Positions 48,346 through 56,810 of a stretch of DNA of 64,000 nt are shown in pieces. The stretch is taken from contig NZ_CP109009.1 of the NCBI RefSeq assembly GCF_036226685.1, positions 1,426,001-1,490,000 of the forward strand, in the 5' to 3' direction. The notes below the pieces were generated by a model, which was not told the origin of the DNA, did not search any database, and saw only the letters and a list, made by a program, of their open reading frames with translations. The position numbers and the translations under genes were made by a program. The number at the start of each line of letters is the position of its first letter. Within the stretch, counting starts at the first letter, position 1. Source of the stretch: Streptomyces sp. NBC_00690 (GTDB lineage: Bacteria > Actinomycetota > Actinomycetes > Streptomycetales > Streptomycetaceae).

Positions 48346-48574
48346 GCAAGCGGAGATAACACCGCGCGCCGGGCCCTTGCCCGCTTCGATGTCGCTGATG
48401 GGCGATGGGTCGGCCGTCATGACGTGGGGCGCCCCATCGACGCACACCCGCCCTGTGGATAACGTCGGTTGGTGCCGTTGACCAGGGACTCTTCCGCCGT
48501 CGCAGCCTGTCAGATGCACCCCGGCACCGCTCGTGGCGGATCGAATGTCAGTGCCTGCGCCTACGGTCTTTTGC

Positions 48575-49981
48575 ATGACGCGATCCATGCAGGCACTCGC
48601 CTACGCACGCCCGTCCACCCTTGAGTCATCGGCCGACGGACCCCTCCTCGGGCTGGAGACTTCGGGGGGCCTGACACCCGTCGGCGCACAAGCGCACCCC
48701 CACTTCTTCTCGGGCTTCTTGACCTCGCCCCACACCGCGGCGCGTGGTCTGTTGGCGGTCGCGGACGTGGCAGCCGCCCGCTATGTGGACCCCACGCCTC
48801 GCCCCCTGCTGGATCCCGTGGTGACCGGCAACGGCGATCGTTTGCGGTTTGAGTCCTTCTCGGGGTGTTGTGGGGTCTACGCCCGGCTGGACGTGTTGAG
48901 CGCGGGGTTGGACGGCAGGGAGACCGGGCGGGGCACCACCAACGTGGACGTCAACAATCCGTTGCGCGATGCCCTGTCCCGCATGACCGGTGACAGTCCG
49001 CTCCATCTGCGGGTGGGTCCGGAAGAGTTGGCCGTCACCACGCTCGACGGATCGGTGGTGGAGAAGAAGGTACCGCTGCCGGACCGTTGGCTGCGGGGGT
49101 TCGCCGAGGCCCAGGTGGCGACCGCGGGCTTCGATCTGCGAGCAGAGCTGTCCGCGACGGAGGCCGTGCGTTTTCTGCGCTCGCTGCCCACGTCGACGGG
49201 TCGGGCTTCCCTGGGCGCGAAGTGGGTGGTGCCGGCCGGCAAGACCCTGCGGCCGACCACGCGTCCGGTGGCCGGCGCGGTCTGTCTGCCGGGGCCGGAG
49301 CGGCTGACGGCGCTGCGCCGGGTCCTGCGCCACGCGATCGCCCTGCGCGTGTACGGGCCGGCGACGCCCGGCGGCTCGAACTCCCCCACCTCGACGGCAT
49401 GGGAGGTGGTGCTGCCCGGTATGCGGCTGACGCTCACCCTTTCGCCCGACACCCGTAGGGGATTCTCCGGCGAGGGCGGGGTGCTCGAAGCCCTGGCCAC
49501 CGAGGAGGCGGCCCAGGACGCCGAGTTGATCTCGGTGTTGCTCGCCTGGGAGCCGACCATCGATCCCGCGGATCTGGCGAGCCGCTCCGGTCTGTCGGTG
49601 GCCCGGGTACGAGCGGCCCTGGTGCGGCTGGGAACCGCCGGACGGGTGGGCTACGACGTGGCTGACGCGGCGTACTTCCACCGCGAACTCCCCTATGACG
49701 CGGACCGGGCCGAGCGGCACAACCCGCGTCTGGTGGCGGCCCGGAAGCTGGTGTCGTCCCGGGCCGTCGCCCTACATGCCGAAGGCGCGTCGGTGACCTC
49801 CGGCGAACGGGTGTACCAGGTGCGCGAGGAGGACGGACGGCTGCGGTGCACCTGCGCCTGGTGGTCCGACCACCTGGGCCAGAGAGGGCCGTGCAAACAC
49901 GCCCTGGCCGTACGTATCACCCGACGCGAGGCCACCGTCTCCGCCACCGCCGATCACCCGGTGTCAGGAGCTGCCCGATGA
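48575..49981 (+). CDS. SWIM zinc-finger protein
   Basis: A 468-residue protein; ATG 48575 gives MTRSMQALAYARPS, with no clear ribosome site. Only the C-terminal SWIM finger is recognisable: Cys425, Cys427, Cys440, His442 (CTCAWWSDHLGQRGPCKH), the CxCxnCxH pattern that binds zinc and often DNA or protein. Before it is a winged-helix-like segment (LAWEPTIDPADLASRSGLSVARVRAALVRLGTAGRVGYDV). The rest is not similar to anything I can name. The next gene starts inside its stop (ATGA), so the two proteins very probably work together. Confidence 0.85.
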   Translation: MTRSMQALAYARPSTLESSADGPLLGLETSGGLTPVGAQAHPHFFSGFLTSPHTAARGLLAVADVAAARYVDPTPRPLLDPVVTGNGDRLRFESFSGCCGVYARLDVLSAGLDGRETGRGTTNVDVNNPLRDALSRMTGDSPLHLRVGPEELAVTTLDGSVVEKKVPLPDRWLRGFAEAQVATAGFDLRAELSATEAVRFLRSLPTSTGRASLGAKWVVPAGKTLRPTTRPVAGAVCLPGPERLTALRRVLRHAIALRVYGPATPGGSNSPTSTAWEVVLPGMRLTLTLSPDTRRGFSGEGGVLEALATEEAAQDAELISVLLAWEPTIDPADLASRSGLSVARVRAALVRLGTAGRVGYDVADAAYFHRELPYDADRAERHNPRLVAARKLVSSRAVALHAEGASVTSGERVYQVREEDGRLRCTCAWWSDHLGQRGPCKHALAVRITRREATVSATADHPVSGAAR

Positions 49982-52900
49982 ACACACTCCTGGAAGCCGT
50001 GCGCGCGGGACACCCCACGAAGGTCCCGACGTTGCTGAAGCGCTTGGGTCCCGCCGAGCGGAAGACGATGCTGACCGAGCTCAAGACCCTGCGCAACGAG
50101 TTGCGCCAGGGCGATCCGAGCCGCTGGCCCAGTTGGCGGGAGCGCAACGACGTGGGGGCCGCCCTGTTGGTTGCGGGCGCAGGCTGCCACACCGGAGCGG
50201 CAGCCGCTGCCCTCTGGTTGGGGTCCAGGGATCTGCGCACCGGGTCCGGCACGCCCCGTGATGCGCTCGTCGAGGTGCTCAAGGAGCGGGACGCCGACTG
50301 GCTCGGGGACGTTGCCCACCGGCTGGCCGCACGTGCCTCCACCGCCGAAGAGGACTACTGGCTGATCCGCCGCCTGGTGGATCTAGCCGGCTGCCCGGTG
50401 CCTGTCACCGACGGCTATGTGTACGGCTGGATCAACGAGTTGAGCCGTATGCGATCCGGCACGCTCCATCGACTGCGTCAACGGCTCACCGAGGACCCGC
50501 AGACGCCGATCCTGGTGCCTCGGCTCTTCGAAACCCCGCAACTGCCCGGCCCACTCGCCTGGTACGCGGACCCTGATACGCCCGCCCACTGGCCCTCGGT
50601 GCTCGTCGGCCTCACCGAGGACGGGGTGGTGGAACGCGCGGTGGTGGTGGACGCCTGTGTCGCCCGACTCCTGCGCGGCGGCAAACCGGGTGACCTGCGC
50701 TTCTTCCTGGCCCTGCTGCGGCGGCTGGAGCTGACCGGACACGAGGAAGCGGCCCGTGTTCCCGACTGGCTGGGCATGGCCGCCGACGGCCCGACCTCCG
50801 TCGCGACGGTTGCTCAGGGCGTGCTCGCCCGGCTCGCCGAGAGCGGGGCACTGTCGACGTCGGCCCTCGCCGAAATGTCTGGCGCCGTTCTCTTTCGCAC
50901 CGAGAAGAAGTTGGTCACGGCTCAACTGTCGCTGCTGGGGAAGGTGTTGCGGTCGCACACCCAGCTCAGGAAGAAGCCCGGCACCAAGAGCGCAACGCCC
51001 ACAACAGACGCGACCGGCGCGACCGACGCAACGAACGCAGTGAACAGAGAGCGTGCGGAGAGTTCGGCGGCTGTTCGTGAACTCCTGCCGGTGGTCGCCG
51101 AAGCCTTCGGCCATGACGACGTCATCATCCAGGGGCGGGCGCTGAAAGTGGTGTCACGTCATCTGCTGCCGGCGGACGACGACCTTCGGAAGGAACTGGC
51201 CGCGTCGGCATCGCTCCTGAGCCCGGTCCACCATGCGGCGGCGGCAGATCTGTTCGGCGCGGTGACGGTGGCGACGGACCCGAGCACCCATGAGGAGCTC
51301 CTGCCCGCCGTACCCGAGCCGATCAGGCTCGCTCCCCCGGCCACATCGGTCGCCGAACTCGTGGCGGAGCTCTCGGTGGTACGAGGAGGCACCACGGACC
51401 CCTCTGCGTTCGAACGGGCGCTGGACGGTCTGGTCCGCCTCGCGCACCGCGAGCCGGAGGCACTGGTCACCGAACTGCGCAGCGCCATGGCGAACCGCTG
51501 GTGGTTGCAGTCGCACCTCTCCCGGTTCGCCGATCTCGACGCCCACTTCGAGCGGGGCGTCCACGCGGTGGACGTGGTCGCCGCCGCCTTGCTGGGACGG
51601 ATCTCCGACCGGGCGATCCGCCAGGTCCAGAACAAGGCACCCACCCAGTCCGGGTGCCCGCACAGCGGTATGGCGGCGATCACCAGGGCACGGCTCTGGG
51701 AGGCGGCCCAGCTGGTCAGGAATCGATCCGTGCCGTTCCTCCTGTCGACGCCGACATGGGAGAACGGAGTCCTCGACCCCGCCGTTCTGGTGGAGCGCCT
51801 GAGGGAGTACGGCCGGCTCGGTGTCGAGCCTGCACCGGCGGACTTCGCCCAGGCGCTGCTGCGGGTCGCCTCGGACGACGGCGAGTGGGACCCGGGTGTG
51901 GCGGCCGAGGCCGCAGCAGGACTGGGCACGGAAGAGGGCGACCGGCTCGCGCTCTGGCTCATGGGCGGCGGTCCCTTTCTGGCTGCCCTGCACCCGGGGC
52001 AGGAGGAGGATCGGGAGCCGGCCGAATCGGACTCCGAGGACAGTCTTCTGCGGCATCCGGCACGGGCGACGCGGCGGCTGCTGGACCGGGCGCGGGCCCG
52101 GCGGGCGATCCAGCGGGAGTTCCCCGCCGGATTCCACTGGCTGAGCCGACAGGTCGATCCCCGGCACCGCCACGACTACAGGTGCCTCATGTACTACGGC
52201 AATTGGCAGAGCGTGGTGCCGCACTGGCCCACCGTCGTACCGCACCACCGCGAAGCACTGGCAAGCTGGCTGTTGCCGGGGCTGCTGGAGACCATGGTGG
52301 CCGACATCCATGACAGCGATCTGCGTGGTGGCGCCTGGTGCCTGCCACGGCTGGCCGAGGGCGCGGCCCCGAGCGGGCCCGCCGGGCAGGCGATGCACCG
52401 GGCGATCGCGGCGGGCCTTGGGGTGCGGGTCGCCGACGACCGACTGGCCGCGGTGGATGCATTGTTGGTGACCGCGGCCCGTGGCCAGTTGGACCCTGCT
52501 CTCCTGGGGCGTGAGCTGGGCGAGTTGGTTGCCCACGGCCATGTGAAGCCCACCCGCATCACCGACGCCCTGGCCACGGCCGCAGCCACGGGTGCGCATC
52601 GCACGGTCTGGTCGGTGCTCGCCGGCGCACTGCCCGAGCTGCTTGGTTCACCGAAGGCGGCACGGGCCGTGGGGGGCCTCCTCGCGGTCGCCGCGGACTG
52701 CGTGGAGCAGTGCGGTCCGCGCCTCATAACCGTGAGGGTGGGGGTCGCCCAGGAGCCGGCCATCGGGCCGATGGAGGCCGACCGCGGTGTCGAGGGACCG
52801 ACGGGCCTCGACCCCCTGGACATGTCGGGTGCCAATTCGCCATCCCGGTCCGGAGCGGCACAGGCGACGCTGGTGCGGCCGACACACACTGCGCAGGCGG

Positions 52901-52995
52901 AGGGCGGGATACCGGGGCTGGCCGAGCTGGCGCGCCGCGGAGGTTCGTCCCAAGCGGTCACCCAGGCGGCGCGGCTGCTGGCGGCGCTGCGGTAG
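49978..52995 (+). CDS. DUF6493-type large helical protein
   Basis: A 1005-residue protein starting at ATG 49978 within the SWIM gene stop. The N-terminus (LLEAVRAGHPTKVPTLLKRLGPAERKTMLTELKTLRNELR) and overall look fit the DUF6493 family that accompanies SWIM proteins in actinobacteria. It is mostly amphipathic helices, suggesting HEAT-like repeats and a scaffold role. A low-complexity Thr/Asp/Ala linker (about 337-357) divides it in two. No catalytic motif, signal or membrane segment is seen. The function of this pair is not known to me. Confidence 0.75.
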   Translation: MNTLLEAVRAGHPTKVPTLLKRLGPAERKTMLTELKTLRNELRQGDPSRWPSWRERNDVGAALLVAGAGCHTGAAAAALWLGSRDLRTGSGTPRDALVEVLKERDADWLGDVAHRLAARASTAEEDYWLIRRLVDLAGCPVPVTDGYVYGWINELSRMRSGTLHRLRQRLTEDPQTPILVPRLFETPQLPGPLAWYADPDTPAHWPSVLVGLTEDGVVERAVVVDACVARLLRGGKPGDLRFFLALLRRLELTGHEEAARVPDWLGMAADGPTSVATVAQGVLARLAESGALSTSALAEMSGAVLFRTEKKLVTAQLSLLGKVLRSHTQLRKKPGTKSATPTTDATGATDATNAVNRERAESSAAVRELLPVVAEAFGHDDVIIQGRALKVVSRHLLPADDDLRKELAASASLLSPVHHAAAADLFGAVTVATDPSTHEELLPAVPEPIRLAPPATSVAELVAELSVVRGGTTDPSAFERALDGLVRLAHREPEALVTELRSAMANRWWLQSHLSRFADLDAHFERGVHAVDVVAAALLGRISDRAIRQVQNKAPTQSGCPHSGMAAITRARLWEAAQLVRNRSVPFLLSTPTWENGVLDPAVLVERLREYGRLGVEPAPADFAQALLRVASDDGEWDPGVAAEAAAGLGTEEGDRLALWLMGGGPFLAALHPGQEEDREPAESDSEDSLLRHPARATRRLLDRARARRAIQREFPAGFHWLSRQVDPRHRHDYRCLMYYGNWQSVVPHWPTVVPHHREALASWLLPGLLETMVADIHDSDLRGGAWCLPRLAEGAAPSGPAGQAMHRAIAAGLGVRVADDRLAAVDALLVTAARGQLDPALLGRELGELVAHGHVKPTRITDALATAAATGAHRTVWSVLAGALPELLGSPKAARAVGGLLAVAADCVEQCGPRLITVRVGVAQEPAIGPMEADRGVEGPTGLDPLDMSGANSPSRSGAAQATLVRPTHTAQAEGGIPGLAELARRGGSSQAVTQAARLLAALR

Positions 52996-53249
52996 GGACA
53001 CCCCCACGGTAGGACGCCACCGCCCGTGCCCATGGTGGTGTGAAGGCCGTGCGCAAGCCGGTCAGGCCCCTCGCGACAGGGCGGTAGGGCAGCACGGCAG
53101 ACGGTAGGGCGCCCGGCGTACGGTGGCGCCGCCCTGGGCCCATGCCACAGGGTCAGCAGCGGACTCGATCAAGCCCTCTCGCACCACTCTTTACCCATCG
53201 GTCACACAGCGTTCGTGGCTGGGCAATACGGCTCGGAGAGGGTGGATGC

Positions 53250-55127
53250 ATGACCGAGACGATGTCCGCGCAACGCACCCGCCGTCCGCGCCAGTGGCGG
53301 CGGAGTCTCTTCGGTCCATCTGCCGCCTTCGCTGCGGTGACGGCGGTACTCCTGCTGACCGTCAACGGCGCGATGACCCGTCACGCCACAACAGACCCCG
53401 GCGCCATGGGTGGCGCCGACGCCGGCCGTACCGCGGGGATCCACGGTGGCGACCTGACCACCCGCGGCACCTCGGGGGCGCTGGGTTCGGCACCGGCTTT
53501 CCCGGAGCCCTCGACGACCGCGGCGGTGACGATCGCCGTGGTCAGTACCGGTGTGCTTCTGCTCTGGTGGCTCGGCTGGTCCCGCCGTCGGTCCATTGGC
53601 CGCGGTGCGTCCCCGACCACCACACCGATCATCGTCACGCGCTCCGGCTCCACCCCCAGTACGAGCGGACCGACCGCGCCCCCCGGTACACCGCCGGCAG
53701 GTCCGGCCCCGTCGAAGGGCGCTACAGCCGACGACACGACCTTGGATCGCACCGAAGAGGGATCTCGCCCCGGCCAGAGCGGTACCCGCCGCGAAGAGCC
53801 CTCCGCACGGAAACCCGTACGGACGGACGGGCAGGCGGACCTGCGGGCAGATGCGCGGGAGAACCCATCGGCGGATGTGCGGAAGAGCGCGCGGACGGCG
53901 GGGAGCGCCCGTTGCGTCCAGGACATCGACACCGGAATGCGTCTCGCCCCGTCAACCTCGGATGTACCCGACCTTGCCTCTCCAGCGGCCGGCACGGTAC
54001 CGGAGCAACCGGAGACGACGCTCTGGCGGATGCGTACCACCGTGCAGGACACACCCGGCTCACTCGCCGCCCTCTGCACCGCCCTGGCGGGGTTGCGCGT
54101 CGATATCCTCACCCTCCAGACACACCCCCTCACCGATGGGACGGTGGACGAGTTCCTGCTCCGCGCCCCGGTCGCCCTGGAGGCACAACATCTGACCCGG
54201 GAGATCGCCCGCGCGGGCGGTCGTGACATCTGGACCGAGCGCGCCGACGCGCATGACGTGGTCGACACGCCCACCCGGGTCCTCGCGCTCGCCGCCCGTA
54301 CCGCCGTGGACTCCGCGGCGCTCCCCCTGTCCCTGCGACGGCTGCTGGGCCGGTGCACGATCAGGTCCCGGCCCGCGGTCTCCGCGTCAGGCCACCGCGC
54401 CCGTGACCTCCCGCCCGTCGAGGGCGTCCTGGACGGCACGGTGATGCGGTTGAGAGACGGCGAAGGCGGCGCGATCACGGTGGAACGCCCATATCTGGCC
54501 TTCACCCCGACCGAGTTCGCCCGGGCACGGGCCCTCGTGGAGTTGGACGCCGTGCTCGGATTGCGCATTCCCCGGGGCCAGGACGTCTGGACGCTCGCCG
54601 AGGGCGAGGAGATCGTCGTGGGCCGAGCCGGTCTCTCGGACGTGTCCGAGGCGACGGCACTGCACGAGCGGTGCTCCGACCGGGCCCTACGGCAGCGCTA
54701 CCACGGCCCGGTCGGCGATGCCCACCGCTATCTCAACCATCTGCTCGATCCGCGTTTCGGACAGACTCTCGCCGCCAGAACGCCTTCGGGACGCATGGTC
54801 GCCCTGGGGCACCTCCTGTGGGACGGGGACGAGACCGAGGTGGCGCTGCTCGTCGAGGACGACTGGCAGCGCCGGGGCATCGGCGCCGAACTGCTGCGTC
54901 GACTCCTCGCACTGGCCCGGGAGACCCGCTGCCGGAGCGTGTACGCGGTGACCCGGTCGTCGAACACCGGGATGGTCTCCGCCATGCGGGGCCTCGGATT
55001 GCCGCTCGACTACCAGTTGGAGGAAGGCACCCTGGTGATCACCGCGCGCCTTGAGGTGACGTCAACAGCGTCCCGTTCATCGGCCGCTCTTCCCGGCGCG
55101 CCGGCTGGGCACCGAGGGCCTGGCTGA
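53250..55127 (+). CDS. Membrane-anchored ACT-GNAT fusion (putative amino-acid-regulated acetyltransferase)
   Basis: A 625-residue protein, ATG 53250, ribosome site GGAGAGGG about 9 nt upstream. Two membrane segments (about 24-42 and 90-110) with Arg-rich flanks place both ends inside. A disordered Pro/Thr/Arg linker follows (to about 250), then an ACT domain (about 256-325: WRMRTTVQDTPGSLAALCTAL, HPLTDGTVDEFLLRAP) and a C-terminal GNAT (about 450-600) with acetyl-CoA motif VEDDWQRRGIGAELLRRLL. Soluble ACT-GNAT lysine acetyltransferases switched by amino acids are known in actinobacteria; the membrane anchor is unusual. Its 3' end overlaps the convergent PLP-enzyme gene by 89 bp. Confidence 0.82.
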   Translation: MTETMSAQRTRRPRQWRRSLFGPSAAFAAVTAVLLLTVNGAMTRHATTDPGAMGGADAGRTAGIHGGDLTTRGTSGALGSAPAFPEPSTTAAVTIAVVSTGVLLLWWLGWSRRRSIGRGASPTTTPIIVTRSGSTPSTSGPTAPPGTPPAGPAPSKGATADDTTLDRTEEGSRPGQSGTRREEPSARKPVRTDGQADLRADARENPSADVRKSARTAGSARCVQDIDTGMRLAPSTSDVPDLASPAAGTVPEQPETTLWRMRTTVQDTPGSLAALCTALAGLRVDILTLQTHPLTDGTVDEFLLRAPVALEAQHLTREIARAGGRDIWTERADAHDVVDTPTRVLALAARTAVDSAALPLSLRRLLGRCTIRSRPAVSASGHRARDLPPVEGVLDGTVMRLRDGEGGAITVERPYLAFTPTEFARARALVELDAVLGLRIPRGQDVWTLAEGEEIVVGRAGLSDVSEATALHERCSDRALRQRYHGPVGDAHRYLNHLLDPRFGQTLAARTPSGRMVALGHLLWDGDETEVALLVEDDWQRRGIGAELLRRLLALARETRCRSVYAVTRSSNTGMVSAMRGLGLPLDYQLEEGTLVITARLEVTSTASRSSAALPGAPAGHRGPG

Positions 55128-56250
55128 GGTCGCTCCAGAGGTCGTCGACGTCCTCAAGTCCCACCGACAGCCGTAGCAGTCGGTCGCTGACGCCCGCCGA
55201 GTGGCGATCGGTCTCGGCGACGATGCGATGGCTGATGGAGGCAGGATGCTGGATCAAGGTGTCCACGCTGCCGAGGCTGACCGCCGGTGTGATCAGCCGG
55301 ACGGCTGCGATGACGTCCCTGGGGTCACCGTGGACCTCGAAGGAGACCATGCCACCGCCGAGTCGTGGATAGTGGACCGCGGTCACTCGCGGATCGCAGC
55401 CGAGCCGTCGGGCGAGTTCGGCGGCCGAGGCGGAAGCCGCTGCCACACGTATAGGCAAGGTGGCCAGCCCCCGCAGCAGCAGATAGCCCGCCATCGGGTG
55501 CAGAACGCCCCCGGTCGCGAACCGCACCTGCCTCAGTCGGCCCGCGAACTCCTCGTCGCACGCCACCACCCCGCCCAGCACATCGCCGTGTCCGCCGAGG
55601 TACTTGGTCGCACTGTGCAGGACGATCTGGGCGCCGAACTCCAGGGGCCGTTGGAGTACGGGGGTGGCAAAGGTGTTGTCGACGAGCAGGGGGACCGCAC
55701 CACAGGCGTGCCGGACCGCCGCGAGATCGACTTCCGCGAGCGTGGGATTGGCCGGGGTCTCCACCATCACCAGACCGGTGTCGGGTCGGATCGCCGCCGC
55801 GATGCCAGCCGGATCCGTCCAGGTGACCTCGGTGCCCAACAGGCCCGCGGCGAGGAGGTGGTCACTGCATCCATAGAGCGGGCGCACCGCCACCACGTGC
55901 CTGAGTCCCATACTGGCGCGCACCAGCAGTACCGCGGTGAGCGCCGCCATTCCGCTGGCGAACGCCACCGCGTCCTGGGCGCCTTCGAGCCGGGCGAGCG
56001 CAGTCTCGAACCGGGCCGTCGTCGGATTGTCGAGCCGTGCGTAGACGGGCGGACCCTCCAGCCGGGCACCGGTGGTGGCGAAGGCGTCGATCCGCTCTGC
56101 TTCCTGAGCCGCGTCGTAGGACGGGTAGGTCGTGGACAGATCCAGTGGAGGTGCGTGCAGGCCGAGCTGTGCGAGGTCCTCGCGTCCGGCATGGACTGCT
56201 TCGGTGGCCAGGGCCCGGGGTGTCGGGGCGGCGAAGGCTGAGTTCTCCAT
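55039..56250 (-). CDS. Cys/Met-metabolism PLP-dependent enzyme (gamma-synthase/lyase type)
   Basis: A 403-residue trans-sulfuration enzyme of the MetB/MGL family, ATG 56250. Motifs: STTYPSYDA, YARLDNPTTARFETALARLEG, SGMAALTAVLL, the substrate Tyr region LYGCSDHL, VDNTFATPVLQRP, and the PLP lysine in LHSATKYLGGHGD. The SLGSVDTLIQHPAS...LRLSVGLEDVDDLW end is standard. It could be cystathionine gamma-synthase, cystathionine gamma-lyase or methionine gamma-lyase; Cys in LYGCSDH, at the position used by methionine gamma-lyases, makes a lyase plausible. A divergent Lrp/AsnC regulator probably controls it by amino acid level. Confidence 0.9.
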   Translation of the reverse strand: MENSAFAAPTPRALATEAVHAGREDLAQLGLHAPPLDLSTTYPSYDAAQEAERIDAFATTGARLEGPPVYARLDNPTTARFETALARLEGAQDAVAFASGMAALTAVLLVRASMGLRHVVAVRPLYGCSDHLLAAGLLGTEVTWTDPAGIAAAIRPDTGLVMVETPANPTLAEVDLAAVRHACGAVPLLVDNTFATPVLQRPLEFGAQIVLHSATKYLGGHGDVLGGVVACDEEFAGRLRQVRFATGGVLHPMAGYLLLRGLATLPIRVAAASASAAELARRLGCDPRVTAVHYPRLGGGMVSFEVHGDPRDVIAAVRLITPAVSLGSVDTLIQHPASISHRIVAETDRHSAGVSDRLLRLSVGLEDVDDLWSDLSQALGAQPARREERPMNGTLLTSPQGAR

Positions 56251-56301
56251 GACCGCAGGGTGAACACTTACCGGGAAGTTCGGGCATGATCCCGTGCTAC
56301 G

Positions 56302-56318
56302 TTCGGCCAATGGCCGAA
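56302..56318. promoter_or_regulatory. Palindrome spanning the lrp start codon
   Basis: TTCGGCC-AAT-GGCCGAA is a perfect inverted repeat whose centre includes the ATG of the Lrp-type gene. It suits autorepression of the regulator, and lies 52 bp from the divergent PLP enzyme start. Confidence 0.55.
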
Positions 56319-56810
56319 TCTATCGCTCTTGATCCGGTGGATCTCCGCATACTTCGCCTCCTACAGAACGATGCACGGACCACCTATCGCGATCTCGCGG
56401 CGGACGTGGGCATCGCCGCATCCACGTGTCTCGACCGCGTGGCCAGGCTGCGCCGTTCGGGCGTGATCCTTGGCCATCGTCTGGCACTCGACCCGGCCCG
56501 GCTCGGCCGCGGGCTCCAAGCGCTGCTCTCCGTACAGGTGCGCCCGCACCGTCGCGAGTTGATCAGTACGTTCGTGGAACGCATCCGCGCGCTACCCGAG
56601 TCCAGGGCGCTGTTCCATCTGACCGGCCCGGATGACTATCTCGTTCATGTGGCCGTGGCGGACACCGCGGATCTCCAGCGGCTGGTGATCGACGAGTTCA
56701 CCTCGCGCCCCGAGGTGGCACGGGTGGAGACCCGGTTGATCTTCCAGCAGTGGGAGTGCGGGCCGCTGCTACCGCCGGACCGCAGGGATCAGCCGGCCCA
56801 GACCCACTGA
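56310..56810 (+). CDS. Lrp/AsnC-family regulator
   Basis: A 166-residue regulator, ATG 56310 (an upstream in-frame ATG 56286 would add eight residues). The N-terminal helix-turn-helix is LDPVDLRILRLLQNDARTTYRDLAADVGIAASTCLDRVARLRRSGVI (about 7-53) and the C-terminal RAM ligand domain follows (LGRGLQALLSVQVRP...LTGPDDYLVHVAVADTADLQRLV...VARVETRLIFQQ). Lrp proteins form octamers that respond to amino acids. Divergent placement suggests control of the Cys/Met PLP enzyme. Confidence 0.93.
   Translation: MAESIALDPVDLRILRLLQNDARTTYRDLAADVGIAASTCLDRVARLRRSGVILGHRLALDPARLGRGLQALLSVQVRPHRRELISTFVERIRALPESRALFHLTGPDDYLVHVAVADTADLQRLVIDEFTSRPEVARVETRLIFQQWECGPLLPPDRRDQPAQTH

Follow-up and report, generated by a model that had tools for sequence, protein, structure and literature searches.

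A probable membrane anchor on an asparagine-type ACT-GNAT lysine acetyltransferase of Streptomyces

Introduction

Can a lysine acetyltransferase that responds to a free amino acid be held at the cytoplasmic membrane? This question is raised by a patA-type gene of Streptomyces sp. NBC_00690. The gene is located at 53250..55127 on the + strand of a 64,000-nucleotide stretch of DNA (contig NZ_CP109009.1), which is called the window hereafter and to which all positions refer. Its 625-residue product begins with a predicted membrane hairpin and a tether, which are followed by ACT and GNAT domains. A preliminary description of the window had suggested a possible amino-acid-sensing ACT-GNAT acetyltransferase tethered at the membrane. 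The sequence supports a membrane-tethered ACT-GNAT protein that very probably senses an amino acid, and the membrane part belongs to the reading frame. With a probability of roughly 0.78, the protein would be a derived form of the Asn-activated ACT-GNAT lysine acetyltransferases (AAPatA) of Streptomyces, anchored in the cytoplasmic membrane with both ends inside. By its position, its promoter and its place in the trees, the gene is the ortholog of Sven_0867/SCO1293, which encodes the Asn-activated lysine acetyltransferase SvePatA. The enzyme itself has thus already been studied; what seems to be new here is the anchor of the Asn-type enzyme, which has apparently gone unremarked so far.

Domain organization and conserved gene order

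All features are encoded on the + strand unless stated otherwise. The ACT domain covers residues 256-331 (54015..54242) and contains the sequence DTPGSL at 267-272, which fits the ligand-loop motif DXPGXL. Since its Pfam score is under the curated cut-off, Pfam alone was rejected as evidence for this domain and the fold was predicted separately, with a clear result. The fold searches covered GNAT and ACT, and the fold is nearest to that of S. lividans Pat. The ACT domain is followed by a conserved connector, residues 332-440 (54243..54569), which includes FTPTEFARARALVELD from residue 418, and by the GNAT domain, residues 445-602 (54582..55055), in which QRRGIG at 540-545 fits the acetyl-CoA motif A, (R/Q)XXGX(G/A). 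The ACT domain is N-terminal to the GNAT domain to which it is fused, as is typical of AAPatAs.

Two neighbors of the gene are conserved. A PLP enzyme of Cys/Met metabolism (55039..56310, - strand) is convergent with it, the 3′ end overlapping the gene by 89 bases, and a regulator of the Lrp/AsnC family (56286..56810) is divergent from the PLP enzyme. The fetched flanks of 80 named loci, picked by similarity to the database protein P0120, were examined for these genes. The PLP enzyme is present in 72 of them, in all cases convergent and within 1.5 kb, a regulator of the Lrp type in 79 and a DUF885 protein in all 80; among 13 further Streptomyces loci, the PLP enzyme was not found in four. This conserved gene order indicates that the gene is the local copy of a genus-wide gene. 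The divergent pair of PLP enzyme and Lrp/AsnC regulator lies beside the amino-acid-sensing acetyltransferase in 72 of the 80 loci. The PLP enzyme itself is nearest to methionine gamma-lyase models, at scores below their cut-offs, and a search of the open-licence literature for SCO1294 together with cystathionine gave no paper.

A GlnR-type box in the promoter

A GlnR-type operator, TTTACCCATCGGTCAC, is situated at 53190..53205, 44 nt before the start codon. It follows the consensus GTnAC-n6-GTnAC, its first half-site being one base off. When up to five mismatches are allowed, a box is present at 44 nt in 55 of 64 genes (63 from the genus sample and the gene in the window) and at 45 nt in five more. 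The box guided the choice of starts, a procedure that favors starts 3′ of the box but not any single distance. When the consensus was shuffled 500 times, the mean number of genes at the best distance was 1.6 and the extreme was 42; of 1000 other shuffled strings, 51 reached 10 genes and none reached 55. Because the box-bearing genes are kin, this result shows a conserved promoter and not a series of independent events.

The box is supported by published work on S. venezuelae. In the available text of a GlnR ChIP-chip study, Sven_0867, the homologue of SCO1293, is listed with the site TTAACCCGTCAGTCAC, and its GlnR-dependent induction under nitrogen starvation is reported (PMC3087709). For SCO1293, induction by nitrogen limitation is published as well, according to the part of the source available. 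Across the 80 loci (1.19 Mb) there are 30 copies of TTAACCCGTCAGTCAC, one in each of 30 loci. Of these copies, 29 are the best match of their locus and end 44-45 nt upstream of the start of the family gene. The thirtieth is that of L099 (CP042279.1, recorded as a complete genome), where a break in the frame falls inside the hairpin and the start was taken further downstream, past the hairpin. From the conserved box, we infer that the gene in the window belongs to the GlnR regulon.

The leader at 53190-53249 is also alike beyond the box in the Streptomyces genes compared and in the genes for hairpin-ACT proteins of family f3, which are discussed below. It contains the motif GCAACA, which reads GCAATA in the window, 33 nt from where the box begins, a multiple of 11 nt, as further GlnR half-sites would be.

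The reading frame and its start codon

The gene runs from an ATG at 53250 to a stop codon at 55125-55127, and neither stop codons nor frameshifts interrupt it. As listed, the open reading frame begins further 5′, at 53142. The GC content at the third codon position is 0.50 in 53142-53249, against 0.80 in residues 1-230, 0.85 in residues 231-400 and 0.83 in residues 401-625. A start at 53142 was rejected, in view of this low third-position GC and its location 5′ of the GlnR box. Moreover, residues 1-31 are 45% identical (E 3e-5) to residues 1-31 of L168, the relative that matches SvePatA. The spacing of the GlnR box, the drop in third-position GC upstream and the N-terminal homology to L168 make 53250 a well-supported start by sequence. 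When 53142-54020 was used as a DNA query against 150 genomes of the genus, 21 others matched, all inside 53184-53303, a stretch that consists of the promoter and the first 18 codons.

The preliminary description had considered that translation might start near residue 230, in which case the membrane part would not be in the protein. The box spacing and the N-terminal homology speak for 53250 instead, despite the annotation of two relatives: P0002, which is 93% identical to the protein from the window, has an internal Met as its annotated start, and P0004 as annotated has no helices.

The predicted membrane hairpin and its topology

The N-terminal part starts with an Arg-rich segment, residues 1-19 (53250..53306), which is homologous to the N-terminus of the family and would be inside by the positive-inside rule. 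It is followed by predicted membrane helix 1, at about residues 21-43 (53310..53378), by an outer loop of about 45 residues (residues 44-88; 53379..53513), where canonical relatives have a short turn only, and by predicted membrane helix 2, at about residues 89-110 (53514..53579), after which comes the Arg-rich sequence WSRRR. Residues 117-250 (53598..53999) form the tether, which is predicted to be cytoplasmic. The Kyte-Doolittle maxima are 2.01 (residues 20-38) and 1.95 (residues 91-109), and not one of 20,000 shuffled versions of residues 1-125 attained both values. The AlphaFold model is weak as a whole (mean pLDDT 60.4, pTM 0.34) and has helices at 21-46 and 88-116. Its pLDDT is below 50 at residues 114-250, and the low confidence suggests that the tether of about 135 residues is probably disordered. 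Hydropathy, shuffles and model thus agree with the two N-terminal helices and the long disordered tether that had been proposed to precede the ACT-GNAT part.

Both helices are long and hydrophobic enough for an integral membrane protein, and their flanks obey the positive-inside rule. The hairpin would probably insert with both its N- and C-terminal ends in the cytoplasm, as judged from sequence. The Arg-rich flanks at both ends and the even number of helices would place the ACT and GNAT domains in the cytoplasm as well. This bears on an earlier suggestion that wall-associated targets could be acetylated. A membrane location would suit targets in the wall or at the outer surface, but on this topology the ACT-GNAT part faces the cytoplasm, which is also where acetyl-CoA is located, and such targets are highly improbable. 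A further point against them is that motifs of the GNAT protein SCO0988 of S. coelicolor do not occur in any of the 120 family proteins listed. In the available text of the SCO0988 study, the membrane location of that protein was inferred from hydropathy by the authors, the protein formed inclusion bodies in E. coli, and the term "ACT domain" occurs 0 times (PMC11303876). SCO0988 was considered as an ortholog and rejected: the motifs WNEDEE (near residue 73) and AMAFYH (near residue 190), obtained by translation of the primers, are those missing from the 120 proteins, a set that did not include the S. coelicolor ortholog, and the primers were absent from the loci searched.

The canonical hairpin of the genus is moderately hydrophobic and has conserved acidic residues. 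Its second segment is often weak by hydropathy alone. At the threshold used, 11 of the 64 genes from the genus sample score for a single segment rather than a pair, as do 29 of the 80 named loci. The hairpin in the window has lost residues that are conserved in the genus, is more hydrophobic and has a longer loop and tether. The closest relative that aligns over the full length is P0003 (606 aa, 56% identical), with the same order of elements and a long loop. Among the proteins compared, this layout of long loop and long tether is common to these two only. With residues 1-230 as query and E up to 10, only the protein itself was found among 7992 candidates scored, P0003 being missed. The form in the window is derived, with stronger helices, an outer loop of 45 residues, a longer tether and a hairpin sequence that has largely been replaced.

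Such changes could also mean that the N-terminus is decaying in this lineage, relaxed selection having swelled the loop and the tether, so that internal starts may give a soluble ACT-GNAT protein. The loss of conserved hairpin residues in both the window and P0003 would fit this, as would the annotations of P0002 and P0004, the deletion of the hairpin in a number of congeners (see below) and the GC contents of the three codon positions in residues 1-230 (0.66/0.70/0.80), which differ less from each other than in the domains. However, P0003 shares the layout, the frame is intact, both helices are more hydrophobic than is usual in the family, and box spacing and homology of residues 1-31 point to 53250. 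Decay is quite unlikely, and an anchor that has been rebuilt is preferred.

Relation to SvePatA

SvePatA was represented by P0107 and L168 in the comparisons. The available text of Lu et al. 2017 (PMC6434083) names the SvePatA residues Asp109, Lys112, Pro113, Glu114 and Cys139. In L168, which carries the published GlnR site unchanged, all five numbers are exact if residue 1 is set at the start that precedes the hairpin. In P0107, filed as S. venezuelae, the five residues are found at an offset of -1, and P0107 is the only one of 120 proteins with this spacing. The numbering was in conflict with P0120, an S. venezuelae protein filed as ATCC 10712 that has only three lysines; L168 and P0107 resolved this conflict. 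As the published numbers fit a protein counted from the pre-hairpin start, the characterized SvePatA has the N-terminal anchoring hairpin too.

The gene in the window resembles SvePatA in gene order, in the GlnR box at 44 nt upstream and, by residue numbering, in the N-terminal hairpin. Residues 251-601, which cover ACT and GNAT, are 75% identical to L168. An outer loop of 45 residues and a tether of about 135 residues set the protein in the window apart from the SvePatA type, in which the turn is short and the linker measures about 40-50 residues. The earlier claim that no example had been described is contradicted by the numbering of SvePatA and by the 29 of 80 loci that carry its GlnR site upstream; only the remark is missing. 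The related claim that the known ACT-GNATs are soluble fails for the Asn type, whose numbering in SvePatA includes the hairpin, and holds for the Cys type.

According to the available text of PMC6434083, Asn activates SvePatA, and AMP-forming acyl-CoA synthetases, Acs among them, become less active in vitro when the enzyme acetylates their lysines. In total, 24 AAPatAs, 17 of them of the Asn type, were overexpressed in E. coli and purified. In the same text, the word "transmembrane" is absent, "membrane" appears twice, each time in connection with blotting, and neither a membrane fraction nor detergent is mentioned for the purification (PMC6434083). Purification from E. coli argues against a firmly embedded protein. 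The hairpin could thus be peripheral, re-entrant or oligomerizing instead of a true anchor, and the enzyme cytoplasmic like the soluble Cys-type AAPatAs. The moderate hydrophobicity and conserved acidic residues of the canonical hairpin, and its repeated loss, would agree with this. On the other hand, the helices in the window are strongly hydrophobic, Arg clusters precede helix 1 and follow helix 2, and the hairpin recurs in other families. This alternative is considered unlikely, and membrane anchoring remains the preferred reading. In the open-licence literature searched, neither a membrane segment in ACT-GNAT acetyltransferases nor a membrane-bound lysine acetyltransferase was found in print.

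Other lysine acetyltransferases help to place the enzyme. The Cys-type AmiPatA (Amir_5672) and MaKat of Micromonospora, for which lysine acetyltransferase activity is in print, share the ACT-GNAT order with the protein in the window. In AmiPatA, Asp16 sits in the ACT loop in the available text of PMC6434083, so there is no room for a hairpin. The protein in the window does not group with the soluble ACT-GNATs of family f19 (see below), as would be expected of a Cys-type enzyme; in the ACT and GNAT trees it is found among the Streptomyces proteins, beside P0003. The cAMP-sensing Pat of mycobacteria (Rv0998, MSMEG_5458) uses a cAMP-binding domain and not an ACT domain. To our knowledge, it has no membrane hairpin.

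Distribution, loss and selection of the hairpin

The domain order recurs widely in other genomes, as the preliminary description had asked. In 111 of the top 120 database relatives, a canonical hairpin of two helices precedes ACT-GNAT; of the others, four are annotated from a start inside the hairpin, two have the long form (the protein in the window and P0003) and three, P0002, P0004 and P0063, lack the hairpin as annotated. A script counted 107 hairpins in this set and the remainder was sorted by eye. In the 68 Streptomyces genomes sampled, the canonical hairpin is present in 52, it is deleted in 11, often with its last residues left before the linker, and three have other N-termini (the window, L115 and L123). 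It had also been considered that relatives might carry the two halves as separate genes. This is true in part, as hairpin-ACT proteins without GNAT exist in other families and GNAT stands alone in two of the 68 genomes, but ACT and GNAT are fused in the other 66. These two, L128 and L188, whose genomes measure 5.5-5.8 Mb, share the promoter of the family but encode a GNAT domain only.

Selection on the hairpin was assessed by pN/pS in 123 of 144 genes (1500 pairs). A filter on pattern and length had removed the other 21, namely the gene in the window, hairpin-less genes and a few whose canonical hairpin did not fit the pattern. The median pN/pS of the canonical hairpin is 0.33, at an identity of 0.78. 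The linker beside it evolves without constraint in the relatives, with a median of 1.06 and an identity of 0.20. For ACT, connector and GNAT, the medians are 0.41, 0.23 and 0.22, respectively. The canonical hairpin is under purifying selection, a result that bears on the canonical form and not on the helices of the window itself.

Nevertheless, the hairpin has been lost more than once: in a tree of the ACT-to-GNAT part (66 rows), the 10 hairpin-less proteins need six changes, at least three of which are forced by well-supported branches. The 11 deletions, together with the two GNAT-only genomes, show that it is dispensable somewhere.

Proposed mechanism and its meaning

Under nitrogen starvation, GlnR would act at the box 44 nt upstream and induce the gene, as published for S. 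venezuelae and as the box suggests here. The hairpin would probably hold the ACT-GNAT part at the inner face of the membrane on a flexible tether. Free Asn is likely to bind the ACT domain and to raise GNAT activity, given the orthology and the conserved DTPGSL loop, and the GNAT domain would probably acetylate lysines of AMP-forming acyl-CoA synthetases, e.g., Acs, lowering their activity. A preference for targets near the membrane is speculative. The anchor would be general in Streptomyces, lost several times and rebuilt in the lineage of the window.

Nitrogen starvation (through GlnR), an amino acid signal (through ACT) and protein acetylation would in this way be joined at one site in the cell. 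If Asn-type enzymes sit in the membrane, kinetics measured in vitro on free Acs will have to be repeated with the anchored enzyme, as will the search for substrates. Nature already offers controls, namely the 11 deletions of the hairpin and the relatives that lack GNAT.

GNAT-less relatives and a possible origin of the anchor

Families f3 and f19 contain proteins with the hairpin, ACT domain and conserved connector of the Streptomyces family and without a GNAT domain. They have 265-319 aa, with one frame of 393, and comprise the loci L129-L138, L141 and L143-L147. A search of their fetched flanks at E 1e-10 gave no GNAT domain. Of the 11 loci of f3, eight have their best GlnR-like match, with 4-7 mismatches and weak by itself, 44 nt before the start; in the f19 loci the best match is not at this distance. 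Five f19 genomes (G075, G095, G142, G191 and G209) each have one hairpin-ACT protein and one soluble ACT-GNAT. The latter begin at the ACT domain and have no hairpin. In a midpoint-rooted tree built from ACT and connector, with 49 rows, the hairpin-ACT proteins group with the Streptomyces proteins, and a branch with 96/98 support separates the soluble f19 ACT-GNATs from the hairpin lineage. Two soluble ACT-GNATs from family f39 fall on the side of the hairpin and the window, with modest support, so the split between soluble and hairpin proteins is imperfect. By this tree, which holds no protein of known Cys response, the published division into Asn and Cys types may follow that between a membrane and a soluble lineage.

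More tentatively, the conserved unit may be a GlnR-controlled ACT sensor embedded in the membrane, with an optional output domain, although this is doubtful at present. If so, the output would be GNAT in Streptomyces and none in the related families, with the same promoter geometry, and a free amino acid would be read at the membrane, e.g., beside ammonium or amino acid transporters. Streptomyces would then convert the amino acid signal to local lysine acetylation.

Genes upstream in the window

Two adjacent genes on the + strand lie upstream, at 48533-52995. The first encodes up to 482 residues with a CxC...CxH C-terminus, SWIM-like by eye, and has no Pfam match. The second encodes a DUF7824/DUF7825 protein of about 1000 residues. 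Of the 80 loci, 46 have a relative of the first gene in their flanks and 52 one of the second.
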